From a virus, in IMG/VR virus record IMGVR_UViG_3300008108_000011, positions 1-64,000 of that record: a stretch of DNA of 64,000 bases; one strand, 5' to 3'. Below the pieces are notes generated by a model. That model saw only the letters and a program-made list of their open reading frames with translations, was not told where the DNA came from and searched no databases. Shown in pieces: positions 4,212 to 13,608 of the stretch (positions within the stretch are counted from its first letter, which is position 1; each line of letters starts with the position of its first letter). The translations under genes and the position numbers were made by a program.

Positions 4212-4574
4212 ATGAAACAATTTATTGCTCTTGCCGCTCTCCCTCTGATGGCAGCACCTGCTATGGCAGCTCCTTATGTAGAGTCGAAGACAACTACCGC
4301 TCTGGTTGATGGTGATTATACTGGTGCTCAAACTGAACTTCGTGTTGGTTATCAACAAGAAGTTGGAACTGGTGTAACCGTCTTTGGTGAAATCGGTCCT
4401 GGTTACGAGTGGCGTAATGGCGAAGATGGTCAAGGCGTTGCCGTTGGTGAAGTTGGTATCAACTTCCCTATTGCTAATCAACTCTCTGGTAAATTCAAAG
4501 TTGCTGGTGAGTATGGTTTCGATTCCGAAGTATTCGGTCTAGGTGGTGAACTGAAAGTTCGTTATAGCTTCTGA
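4212..4574 (+). CDS. Exported outer-membrane beta-barrel-like protein
   Basis: The 120-residue product has a textbook signal peptide (MKQFIALAALPLMAAPAMA, then APYV). The mature part is Gly-rich with alternating polar and hydrophobic strands and ends in an aromatic residue (VRYSF). Both features are typical of small outer-membrane beta barrels. Codon use is richer in GGT and CGT than most of the window, which suggests high expression. It is followed six bases later by a permease gene, so the pair may alter the infected cell's envelope. A superinfection-blocking role is speculation. Confidence 0.75.
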   Translation: MKQFIALAALPLMAAPAMAAPYVESKTTTALVDGDYTGAQTELRVGYQQEVGTGVTVFGEIGPGYEWRNGEDGQGVAVGEVGINFPIANQLSGKFKVAGEYGFDSEVFGLGGELKVRYSF

Positions 4575-4580
4575 TAAGTT

Positions 4581-5621
4581 ATGGATCTATTAATGGGTAT
4601 CTGGGAGAAGCTTCTGTTTCTCCCTTACATCATCGGCATCATGATTGTCGGTGGTCTCGTAAAACAATACGGAGTGCTTAACGAAGTATTCGTAGCACTT
4701 CGTAAAATCTTTAAGTCAAACAGACTTGTTGTTGCTGCTACCGCTTTAGCTGGTGGTGTTCTACCCATTGAAGGGCGTGTCGTTATGTCGGCACCCCTTC
4801 TGGATTCCATCGCTTCAGACAAAGCACAATCTCGTTCCAAGTTTGGCATTGTAGATTATCTTTCTACTCACCACTATTACTGGTGGTCGCCACTAGAAAA
4901 GACTGTGGTTCTTCCGATGGCAGCATTGGGTCTATCCTATACTCAACTGTTGGGATACACTCTCGTTCCTCTACTGATTACTCTTGGTTTTGCTGGAGTA
5001 TTCATCTTCAAGTATGTGAAGGAAACTGATGTAGAGATTATCCAAGAGACTCGTTCCTTTAGTTGGAATCGTCTTCTGAAAGGTTGGGCACCTATTGTTG
5101 CTACGATGTGGTTCCTGGTTTGCTATGGCGACCCTGATATGCCTTACCTGTTCTCTGTTTGGTTTGGTGGTCTTGCTGCTTACTATTCATTCATCTGTAA
5201 TGATTGGAAGTGGGGTCGTTATATCAATTGGAAGTTTGCTGGTCTTGCAGCACTGGTTCTTACCCTTGCTGCTATCATGGGCGAGATTAAAGAACCTGTA
5301 ATGGATTACCTGAAACTGACTGCTGCTCAGGGGTCTGCTGCCCTCGTGACGGTCTCTGTGGTAGGATTCCTGGCATCGTTCGCCATGGGTTCCTCAGGTA
5401 AGTATGCTGGCATCGTCTCGCTGCTTGCCAAGGCATTTGGTCCTGGCTACTTGACATGGTTCCTCTGCGTGGAGTATGCTGGTTACATCATCTCACCGAT
5501 GCACAAGTGTCTGCTGATTGGTCAGCAATACTTTGGCACTCCTATCAAAACTTATTACAAAGTTCTTGGTATGCTAATTGCTGCATTGGTTGGTTATGGA
5601 GCACTGACTCTAGTGTTCTAG
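4581..5621 (+). CDS. DUF401-like integral membrane permease
   Basis: This 346-residue protein has about ten hydrophobic segments. Two regions match the DUF401 membrane family (relatives of GntP/ion-transporter-like permeases). One is GGVLPIEGRVVMSAPLLD, followed by FGIVDYLSTHHYYWWSPLEK. The second, near the C-terminus, is AGYIISPMHKCLLIG before QQYFGTP. Each half carries a re-entrant-like motif, as in inverted-repeat transporters. The substrate is unknown. It shares a transcription unit with the beta-barrel-like gene upstream. It is an unusual auxiliary gene for a phage. Confidence 0.8.
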   Translation: MDLLMGIWEKLLFLPYIIGIMIVGGLVKQYGVLNEVFVALRKIFKSNRLVVAATALAGGVLPIEGRVVMSAPLLDSIASDKAQSRSKFGIVDYLSTHHYYWWSPLEKTVVLPMAALGLSYTQLLGYTLVPLLITLGFAGVFIFKYVKETDVEIIQETRSFSWNRLLKGWAPIVATMWFLVCYGDPDMPYLFSVWFGGLAAYYSFICNDWKWGRYINWKFAGLAALVLTLAAIMGEIKEPVMDYLKLTAAQGSAALVTVSVVGFLASFAMGSSGKYAGIVSLLAKAFGPGYLTWFLCVEYAGYIISPMHKCLLIGQQYFGTPIKTYYKVLGMLIAALVGYGALTLVF

Positions 5622-10572: not shown

Positions 10573-10588
10573 AGATAAATATATACAA

Positions 10589-10640
10589 TACGTTCATCCC
10601 TATGGGACGGAAGTAAGCCGACTCGGAACGGATCGTTCAT
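10589..10640 (+). promoter_or_regulatory. Glutamine riboswitch, downstream-peptide type
   Basis: The sequence has the core of the glnA/downstream-peptide RNA family. P1 is CGTTC (10591-10595) paired with GAACG (10626-10630). A TCCC TAT GGGA hairpin follows, then the conserved GGAAGTA and the CCG ACT CGG stem. Known members bind L-glutamine and precede short genes in marine picocyanobacteria and phages. Here a second CGTTC (10634-10638) could compete for the P1 3' strand just before the ATG, as an expression switch. A short gene follows, as expected. Confidence 0.8.
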
Positions 10641-10642
10641 CT

Positions 10643-10798
10643 ATGGAAGCAATCCTATTAACTTGCCTTCAAGCTAATTTTATTATCGGAAGAGTAGTTA
10701 CTCATCCAAAATTAGATGCTCAACAAAAAAATGATATTGTTTGGGAAGTGAAACAAGTTACAAAAAAAGGTTGTTTTATAGACGCAAAGGTTGACTGA
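10643..10798 (+). CDS. Small protein downstream of the glutamine riboswitch
   Basis: The 51-residue product (MEAILLTCLQANFIIGRVVT...) has a hydrophobic N-terminal helix with one Cys, then a polar helical tail ending FIDAKVD. I start at 10643 because it follows the riboswitch directly. It is the 'downstream peptide' of this RNA class. Its function is not known to me; control by glutamine points to nitrogen status. Confidence 0.72.
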   Translation: MEAILLTCLQANFIIGRVVTHPKLDAQQKNDIVWEVKQVTKKGCFIDAKVD

Positions 10799-10837
10799 AG
10801 GAACGCTCTTTAACCTAAAAAACTAAGGAGAACCCTA

Positions 10838-10975
10838 ATGTCTAAAGTAGTATATCGCGGCGTTGAATACGATACGCAAAAGCGTTTAGAGTATCAACAG
10901 CAGATGATGCAACAACCCCAACAATACAACGAAACCTATCGTGGTGTTAAGTTTGTAAAGGAGGGTCACAAATGA
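10838..10975 (+). CDS. DUF4278-like small protein
   Basis: AAGGAG lies at good distance before ATG 10838. The 45-residue product has YRGVEYD near the start and YRGVKF near the end, separated by a Gln-rich spacer. This is the repeated YRG pattern of the cyanobacterial DUF4278 family. Function is unknown. It overlaps the next start as ATGA. Confidence 0.65.
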   Translation: MSKVVYRGVEYDTQKRLEYQQQMMQQPQQYNETYRGVKFVKEGHK

Positions 10976-11058
10976 ACTGGCTCAATCTAATCCGCAAGCA
11001 AATTGAAAAGCAAAGAAAACTAGAGATTGCTCAATATCATATGGCAACTCTTGGATAA
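10972..11058 (+). CDS. 28-residue helical peptide
   Basis: A strong ribosome site (GGAGG) lies before ATG 10972, inside the end of the DUF4278-like gene. The product MNWLNLIRKQIEKQRKLEI... is an amphipathic basic helix. A strong terminator follows. The coupling and ribosome site support translation; the function is unknown. Confidence 0.55.
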   Translation: MNWLNLIRKQIEKQRKLEIAQYHMATLG

Positions 11059-11061
11059 AGC

Positions 11062-11086
11062 AAAGGGGCATATGCCCCCTTTTTTA
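11062..11086. terminator. Bidirectional terminator between convergent genes
   Basis: GGGGCATATGCCCC is a perfect palindrome flanked by AAA on the left and a T run on the right. It lies exactly where rightward and leftward genes meet. Confidence 0.85.
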
Positions 11087-13014: not shown

Positions 13015-13218
13015 ATGACTGTAACAAGCAATGAGTTTGGTCAACAGAATATGTGGGCCAAAGAACCTGAAATGGTTTACCAAGAATACAATCGTAAAGG
13101 TCTTCTGACCCCTATGCAAATGACGGAGATGTATAATGGACGCTGGGCTATGGTCGGTATTGTTGCTGGGGCTCTTTCTTATGCTCTCACTGGCAAACTC
13201 TTCTTCGGCATCTTCTGA
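13015..13218 (+). CDS. hli: High-light-inducible protein
   Basis: The 67-residue product ends in a single membrane helix with the chlorophyll-binding signature NGRWAMVGIVAGALSYALTG, as in Hli/ELIP proteins. It would sit in thylakoid membranes and protect photosystem II by binding chlorophyll and dissipating energy. A sigma70 promoter precedes it, so expression is expected early. It heads a photosynthesis cluster with ferredoxin and a second hli. Confidence 0.93.
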   Translation: MTVTSNEFGQQNMWAKEPEMVYQEYNRKGLLTPMQMTEMYNGRWAMVGIVAGALSYALTGKLFFGIF

Positions 13219-13225
13219 CAATTGA

Positions 13226-13254
13226 TTGACAATGACTGAAATTTTGTTTACAAT
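13226..13254 (+). promoter_or_regulatory. Sigma70 promoter for the ferredoxin genes
   Basis: TTGACA at 13226-13231 and TACAAT at 13249-13254 have 17-base spacing. It overlaps the start of a 28-codon frame, so transcripts from it would serve ferredoxin and not that frame. Confidence 0.65.
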
Positions 13255-13318
13255 GACTTCCGTTGCCTTCTTTATTTTACTGGCAGCATCCGTAGAAAAA
13301 CTTTGTGAAACTTACTAA
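13232..13318 (+). CDS. 28-residue membrane peptide before ferredoxin
   Basis: ATG 13232 to TAA 13318 encodes [20 protein letters not shown]..., a single hydrophobic helix with a short charged end. The stop overlaps the ferredoxin start (TAATG). It resembles the size and shape of small photosystem or cytochrome b6f subunits, but I cannot assign it. A promoter overlaps its start, so it would be read from the upstream hli promoter. Confidence 0.5.
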
Positions 13319-13608
13319 TGGCATATAACATTACCCTTCGCTCCCCTGATGGCACCGAGCAAACTATTCAGTGCCCTGACGATCAATACATTCTTGAAGC
13401 TGCTGAAGAGGCAGGTGTTGATCTTCCCTCGTCATGCAAAGCTGGTGCCTGCTCTGCATGTGCTGGTAAACTGATCAGCGGCACCGTTGATAACGAGGAG
13501 CAATCGTTCCTTGATGATGATCAACTTGCTGAAGGTTGGGTGCTAACTTGTGTAGCATATCCCACCAGCGATTGTGTGATTCTTACCGAACAGGAAGAAA
13601 ACTTGTGA
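13318..13608 (+). CDS. petF: 2Fe-2S ferredoxin, plant type
   Basis: The 96-residue protein has the full cluster ligand set Cys40, Cys45, Cys48 and Cys78 ([14 protein letters not shown] ... LTCVAYP). It carries electrons from photosystem I to NADP reductase, bilin reductases and other acceptors. In phages it is thought to supply reducing power during infection. The full length matches cyanobacterial PetF. Confidence 0.95.

Follow-up and report, generated by a model that had tools for sequence, protein, structure and literature searches.

A small phage operon headed by a probable nested double glutamine aptamer with a gene in its inner loop

In both glutamine-riboswitch classes, the third base of a CGG or CGC forms a long-range pair with the base after GAACG, and this pair closes the ligand site. 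In the crystal structures, C1:G59, G22, and C58 together with the long-range pair define the glutamine sites of both classes (PMC6698751). DUF4278 genes are glutamine riboswitch targets in cyanobacteria, where their expression is activated, and cyanobacterial switches of both type I and type II have been reported to work in the ON direction; DUF4278 is related to the N-terminus of the glutamine synthetase inactivating factor IF17 (PMC6316151). Tandem glnA riboswitches carry two glutamine aptamer cores per leader (PMC2864571). Furthermore, phage glutamine riboswitches as such have already been published: the glnA RNA of S-CREM1 (PMC9964418) and the glutamine riboswitch of the methylophage Melnitz (PMC9004378) are phage-borne RF01739 matches, and the available excerpts of these two reports describe neither an inner domain nor embedded genes. 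We found no description of a nested, permuted, or gene-hosting glutamine riboswitch in the literature searched; earlier primary papers may mention one.

The window analyzed here is a stretch of 64,000 nucleotides from a 192.7-kb virus record (IMGVR_UViG_3300008108_000011). The source virus is a T4-like cyanophage, an assignment made because of its wcaG RNA, its large tRNA cluster, and its relatives. As judged by comparison with those relatives, positions 10591 to 10806 probably form a double glutamine aptamer of nested design that heads a small phage operon. Its outer domain would be a type-I glutamine aptamer whose P3 bears a circularly permuted aptamer-like domain in place of the short loop. 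Because this inner domain has a P1' (capped by GAU), a P2', and the same long-range closing pair, two glutamine-site cores would share helix P3. The elements follow the order P1 - P2 - J23 - P3 - (P1' - P2' - J23') - P3 - J31 - P1, within these features:

10574-10581, + strand: T4 late-promoter-like GATAAATA, identical to TATAAATA at 7 of 8 positions (a consensus match only)
10591-10595, + strand: P1 5' strand CGUUC of the outer aptamer, paired with 10801-10805
10597-10607, + strand: outer P2 hairpin UCCC-UAU-GGGA, whose loop can host ORF-A in other phages
10608-10615, + strand: outer junction J23, CGGAAGUA (loop-E strand), with a long-range pair from G10610 to C10806
10616-10623, + strand: P3 5' strand AGCCGACU, paired with 10789-10796
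10626-10638, + strand: P1', with GAACG at 10626-10630, loop GAU, and CGUUC at 10634-10638 (the "switch strand" of an earlier, sequence-only reading)
10640-10644, + strand: P2' 5' strand UCUAU, paired with 10778-10782 and overlapping the ORF-B start codon
10643-10798, + strand: ORF-B (51 aa) within the P2' loop, its stop UGA being in P3/J31
10778-10782, + strand: P2' 3' strand AUAGA
10783-10788, + strand: inner junction J23', CGCAAA, with a long-range pair from C10785 to G10631
10789-10796, + strand: P3 3' strand GGUUGACU
10797-10806, + strand: J31 GAAG (10797-10800), P1 3' strand GAACG (10801-10805), and C10806
10806-10830, + strand: expression platform hairpin, CUCUUUA (10806-10812) with UAAGGAG (10824-10830), sequestering the ORF-C ribosome-binding site
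10838-10975, + strand: ORF-C, 45 aa, DUF4278-like with a YRG motif, the gene that follows the complete element
10972-11058, + strand: ORF-D, 28 aa, overlapping ORF-C (ATGA); phrog_545, E 5e-6
11065-11085, + strand: intrinsic terminator, terminator-like GGGGCATATGCCCC-CTTTTTT, closing the operon unit

The sequence-only reading had placed a glutamine riboswitch at 10589-10640, and all of the motifs that it named are there: CGTTC (10591-10595), TCCC/GGGA (10597-10607), CGGAAGTA (10608-10615), and GAACG (10626-10630), as well as a second CGTTC (10634-10638) and the ATG at 10643, a set far beyond chance. Its glutamine-riboswitch identity is supported by a near-threshold Rfam match in the window, above-threshold relatives, and a covarying ligand-site pair. 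The rest of that observation had to be redrawn. The outer stem between CGTTC 10591 and GAACG 10626 is not a conserved pairing, the partner of CGTTC 10591-10595 being the distal GAACG 10801-10805; the CCG/CGG stem lacks conservation in relatives; the 52 nt covered are only the 5' part of an element of ~216 nt; and the short gene said to follow the riboswitch directly is a 51-aa gene within it, in the inner aptamer loop. As originally drawn, the aptamer has no GAAG before GAACG 10626 and no supported P3, that is, its 3' half is absent. The Rfam covariance-model check came close: RF01739 scores 34.0 bits at 10589-10634 (E 6e-6 over 251 nt, 0.0015 over the whole window), 1 bit under the gathering threshold of 35, the alignment being contiguous, built on the wrong GAACG, and too short to span the 173-nt insert. 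Relatives without an embedded gene exceed this threshold, and in L134 Rfam itself aligns the outer aptamer with a 48-nt insert in P3, at 46.8 bits. A Glutamine-II identity for the whole was rejected on its score (17.2 bits against a cut-off of 33) and its permuted strand order.

A pattern scan of IMG/VR for the aptamer 5' half returned at least 120 contigs. In many of the matches listed, the canonical 3' half CTGAAGGAACG lies 60 or ~180 nt downstream, versus the usual ~10, and ordinary type-I aptamers are also among them. Scans for P3 inserts of unspecified sequence gave at least 120 matches each. Among the matches listed, from IMG/VR and from isolates such as S-PM2 and P-SSM2, 371 unique nested elements were parsed with an expression that required the P1 and P1' strands; all element counts refer to unique sequences and do not represent independent events. 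An unbiased subset of 216 was obtained by removing two scans whose pattern fixed the closing-pair partner base. Hairpin-type isolates are S-CREM1, S-PM2, P-TIM68, Bellamy, and the single-cell-derived virus AG-345-P14, and the 99-nt match annotated in S-CREM1 belongs to the hairpin type of the nested class (L121). The gene-hosting isolates are S-SRM01, DSL-LC02, DSL-LC03, P-SSM7, P-RSM6, P-SSM2, and S-SSM7. Our nested covariance model, R1, spans the gene inserts of DSL-LC02 (73.7 bits) and DSL-LC03 (68.7 bits) and fails to span that of the window, also with filters off; therefore, the window was judged by alignment to relatives. No nested element was recognized in genome contigs with two patterns, the first covering CGG-type outer junctions only and the second giving 53 matches, either tandem aptamers of the ordinary kind or aptamers whose long P3 is unrelated, besides a few chance or unclassified sequences. 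Likewise, a covariance-model search of 386 cyanobacterial genomes, under stricter filters, recognized none, its 10 matches being 50 to 60 nt, a single-aptamer length. Because none was recognized in either collection, the nested element looks phage-specific, and a host origin was rejected.

Two CGUUC and two GAACG strands can pair either nested (1-4, 2-3) or in tandem (1-2, 3-4). Since the P1 and P1' strands are invariant, they cannot themselves covary, and support for the topology comes from P3, the closing pairs, and folding. In the nested reading, the outer closing pair is complementary in 371/371 elements among the matches listed (C-G in 203, G-C in 168), being C-G in marine-type and G-C in window-type elements. 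The unbiased subset, again among the matches listed, has G-C in 168 and C-G in 48 with no exceptions (Fisher p 3e-49). CGG with GAACGC and CGC with GAACGG covary without exception when nested and fail when tandem. Across 34 diverse relatives, 94.6% of cells in the nested structure are paired, 12 pairs have both-sided changes, and covariation is 0.270 versus a shuffled mean of 0.091. Compensatory changes occur in P2, P3, and P2': outer P2 covaries in comparison A1 (both-sided changes in 3/3 pairs, 100% paired), P2' is 98.2% paired in the A2 count, and in relatives with full-length P3 among the matches listed, P3 pair 8 is U-A in 177, G-C in 38, and A-U in 25, pair 5 is G-C in 205, A-U in 21, and G-U in 18, and pair 1 is A-U in 230, G-C in 5, and C-G in 3. 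P3 position 3 is a C.A mismatch in the window, and C.A or A.A is kept in most members. Nested P1, P1', and P2' are picked unaided by the RNAalifold consensus and also by the window's unconstrained fold, which gives nested P1 a pairing probability of 0.81 to 0.90, versus 0.01 for pairing with 10626-10630, and P1' a probability of 0.79 to 0.90. The window's P3 has a probability of ~0.01 by nearest-neighbor folding, which prefers a slightly different junction; because these energies do not favor P3, it may need tertiary contacts.

The outer domain resembles Glutamine-I (RF01739) in its structure. The comparative structure has a P1/P2/P3 three-way junction with CGUUCA and GAAGGAACG; the AGUA and GAA strands of the loop E at the base of P3 are present in CGGAAGUA (10608-10615) and GAAG (10797-10800), conserved in A1; and J23 forms the long-range pair with the base after GAACG (G10610-C10806). 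The region from J31 through P1 to C10806 is a canonical type-I 3' half, invariant in A1. Shared with Glutamine-I are the arrangement CGUUCA-P2-CGGAAGUA-P3-GAAGGAACGC, the long-range pair closing the ligand site, and a DUF4278-type gene downstream. In contrast to Glutamine-I, P3 here bears a second, permuted aptamer-like domain, and the aptamer is split across 216 nt with a gene inside. The outer domain would be expected to bind L-glutamine.

Two other pairings of the same strands have to be weighed against the nested one. RF01739 scores its 34.0 bits on exactly 10589-10634, as would fit a single ordinary type-I aptamer there that controls ORF-B with the alternative hairpin as its switch, and GAACG 10626 is physically able to pair with either CGTTC. 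This was the switch that the sequence-only reading had in mind, with CGTTC 10634 and CGTTC 10591 competing for one GAACG. However, the comparison does not support this as the conserved architecture, each CGTTC having its own GAACG in the nested arrangement. A single aptamer would also be without the J31 GAAG and the conserved P3, would be closed by G10610.G10631 (mismatched in 151/216 unbiased relatives among the matches listed), would depend on the P1 pairing to which the window fold gives 0.01, and would leave ORF-B extending into the true aptamer 3' half; rejected on closing pairs and P3, it is scarcely credible. Two tandem type-I aptamers, 10591-10630 and 10634-10805, would have precedent in the tandem glnA RNAs already cited, which also occur in other phages and bacteria (L035), and L124 scores as two Rfam matches. 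In the tandem reading, however, the window's closing pairs become G.G and C.C, the closing pairs form in 67.6% and 64.7% of the 34 diverse relatives whereas the nested ones hold, and P3 covariation disappears, existing only when read nested. Two complete side-by-side aptamers are not found here, and this very improbable reading was rejected on the same two grounds. What the nested element has in common with tandem glnA leaders is its two cores, joined here via a shared P3 and not side by side.

The inner domain of the nested element has the order GGAACG-loop-CGUUCA-P2'-CGCAAA, which is that of the glutamine aptamer in circularly permuted form, with P3 as the point of entry. P1' is a capped hairpin with a variable loop of 3 to 6 nt in the 371 unique relatives among the matches listed. 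GAACG/CGUUC plus CGC, with C10785-G10631, supply the equivalents of C1:G59, G22, C58, and the closing pair. Among the matches listed, 360 elements have an inner CGC, with G directly after GAACG in 347 and at loop position 3 in the other 13. Of the 10 cases parsed with an inner CGG, 6 have C as its partner, versus 0/360 for CGC (p 6e-11; among the matches listed), and 3 of the remaining 4, parsed as CGGAG, are apparent mis-parses in a hairpin loop. Because the inner core belonged to the search definition, only this closing-pair swap is independent. No loop E or equivalent turn is found, J23' being CGCAAA and J31' CG, with no AGUA/GAA; therefore, we term the domain aptamer-like and do not file it as Glutamine-I. 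The inner domain, too, would bind L-glutamine, less certainly so because it is without the type-I loop-E strands (GUA, GAAG). It shares CGUUCA-hairpin-CGCA and GGAACGG with a C:G closing pair with Glutamine-II (Downstream-peptide, RF01704) but has no H-type pseudoknot with its own P2, and its strands are permuted, GAACG before CGUUC. Because outer P2 and inner P2' can bear an identical hairpin, UUCGCUAUU...AAUAGCGAA (e.g., L151 and L218), their sequences are consistent with a shared origin.

In 195 unique elements among the matches listed, including the window, P2' holds a gene of ~50 codons in place of a hairpin. Its ATG is at P2' position 3 to 5 in 195/195 and its stop at the same J31 site in 191/195 of these. 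The ORF-B start codon is in the P2' helix and its last codons are J23' and P3; with the stop at a fixed J31 site, it is the aptamer junction and P3 that encode the C-terminal residues (IDAKAD or WDAND). P2' base pairs 1 to 5 are paired in 187 to 195 of the 195 ORF-hosting relatives among the matches listed, with U-A/C-G, A-U/C-G, and U-A/A-U swaps, and pairing drops after base pair 5. The dN/dS ratio is 0.18 over 85 sequences, in this frame only, by which measure ORF-B is under purifying selection and evolves as coding sequence between the helices. It belongs to phrog_504 (function unknown), has two invariant cysteines, and is modeled by AlphaFold as a helical hairpin (pLDDT 83.5). There was no Pfam or NCBIfam match and no PDB sequence match, a fold search gave generic two-helix matches only (best E 0.9), and no clear SD precedes the gene. 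Outer P2 likewise contains a gene, ORF-A, in 143 unique elements among the matches listed, with the ATG at P2 position 4 to 6 and within the P2 stem in 143/143. Compared with hhalign, the profiles of ORF-A and ORF-B match at a probability of 94.8 (E 5e-8); these homologous small proteins from two different aptamer loops have two invariant cysteines and a hydrophobic N-terminus. Outer/inner combinations, in unique elements among the matches listed and as sampled by the scans, are hairpin/hairpin 125, hairpin/gene 132, gene/hairpin 50, and gene/gene 56. By comparison among relatives, we could show that the pairing is nested, that the pairs closing both ligand sites covary, that the embedded gene is under coding selection, and that its start and stop are fixed within aptamer helices. 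Group I introns with ORFs in peripheral loops are also structured RNAs with a protein gene in a loop; in contrast, there is no sign of splicing or mobility here, and the start codon lies within a ligand-sensor helix.

The DUF4278-like gene at 10838, and not the short gene near 10640 to which control had been ascribed, is the canonical target downstream. ORF-C scores 19.1 bits (E 0.0017) against Pfam DUF4278 (PF14105; gathering 25.3), its P-TIM68 homologue scores 26.0 bits, above that cut-off, and ORF-C matches phrog_5049 (E 1e-10). A YRG gene is downstream of 287/357 elements, and in S-CREM1 the ORF-D homologue is fused to the YRG part. The platform hairpin (-7.3 kcal/mol) uses C10806, whose equivalent is paired in 239/262 relatives versus ~150 in shuffled leaders; the ORF-C SD is paired in 226/262 versus 103 to 119. 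Because C10806 serves both the outer closing pair and the SD hairpin, a simple switch can be envisaged. With glutamine bound outside, C10806 would pair with G10610 rather than within the SD hairpin, and its capture would weaken that sequestering hairpin and turn the DUF4278-like ORF-C ON, the direction known from cyanobacterial glutamine riboswitches. Inner binding would stabilize P1'/P2' around the ORF-B start codon and disfavor ORF-B, whereas ribosomes on ORF-B would unfold the inner domain and P3. We infer glutamine binding and the switching direction; from geometry, a single metabolite might then control ORF-B and ORF-C in opposite senses. More broadly, we tentatively propose, at somewhat less than even confidence, a two-site glutamine sensor with genes in its aptamer loops, in which ligand-stabilized helices would hold start codons, translating ribosomes would dismantle the sensor, embedded and downstream genes would be translated oppositely, and small Cys-Cys helical-hairpin genes would move between homologous aptamer halves.

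Two further readings accept the nested fold and dispute parts of this mechanism. The missing loop E and the shortening of J23' to CGCAAA are what one might see if only the outer domain bound glutamine, the inner one having lost binding and serving as a structural relay or cassette-carrying scaffold. Against this, the inner closing pair still swaps compensatorily (the 6/10 versus 0/360 above), as expected if the inner site is maintained, and type-II aptamers bind without loop E (PMC6698751); we consider outer-only binding unlikely. The embedded genes could also be without any regulatory tie to the aptamer, P2 and P2' being loops that tolerate insertion of small phage genes. That they hold a hairpin or a gene in all four combinations, and that the genes in both are homologous, like a movable cassette, makes this a distinct possibility, although a doubtful one, since the start codon is always in the P2/P2' stem (195/195 and 143/143, among the matches listed) and the ORF-B stop is nearly always in J31, a placement tighter than tolerance alone needs.

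Hundreds of related viruses have this layout of what look like two nested glutamine sensors with a gene threaded through the inner loop. The annotation of phage glutamine riboswitches would change accordingly, the known type-I aptamer being one of two nested partners in many T4-like cyanophages, among them the long-studied isolates S-PM2 and P-SSM2. If both sites bind, the element would contain a natural circular permutation of an aptamer and offer a new route to sensing at two sites. Cases in which the same bases carry a coding sequence and a ligand-sensing fold, as here, are also rare, and this one makes competition between translation and ligand sensing directly testable. The locus suggests that the phage uses host glutamine to control a DUF4278 protein, similar to glutamine-synthetase inactivating factor.

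Upstream, the late-promoter-like GATAAATA is 9 nt from the aptamer (spacing scan), with a candidate transcription start at ~10588. In most relatives, a TATAAT lies 7 to 10 nt upstream of the element (at least 5/6 matches in 250/336 versus 89/336 shuffled). In many relatives, this -10 box is within a short inverted repeat directly 5' of the aptamer (e.g., AGGTGCTATAATGCACCT and GGTCTATAATGACC), which resembles an operator overlapping a promoter. Elsewhere in the window, a wcaG RNA (RF01761, 8101-8198, 102.6 bits), a cyanophage-associated cis-regulatory RNA whose ligand is unproven, lies within the tRNA cluster region. Downstream of the element's region, 13015-13608 holds ORFs for a protein of the high-light-inducible type and for one resembling plant-type ferredoxin, both typical cyanophage metabolic genes and identified by eye only.

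Other P3 inserts were seen as well. A bacterial glutamine-aptamer-like element in an OM182 clade genome (L355/L771) has an insert with CGTTCATTTGAACGCAAAGG and is a weak R1 match (34.8 bits), a possible cellular intermediate. A different, structured insert of ~60 to 75 nt, of the form CTGAAAACCTC..CACATTCGTG..GATAGCAAGTAGGC...GCCGAACGAGACCGAAA, is found in the P3 of type-I glutamine aptamers (L111, 3828-3938; L086; L164; L385) and conserved among phage contigs and a Flavobacteriales MAG. In these elements, Rfam recognizes the glutamine aptamer and nothing else, and neither a tRNA nor a tmRNA was found nearby; the insert is possibly another nested aptamer. Finally, a P3 insert variant in L203 (reverse strand, 4504-4609) keeps AGCCGAC/GCCGACT, with an unrelated hairpin replacing P1'/P2'.
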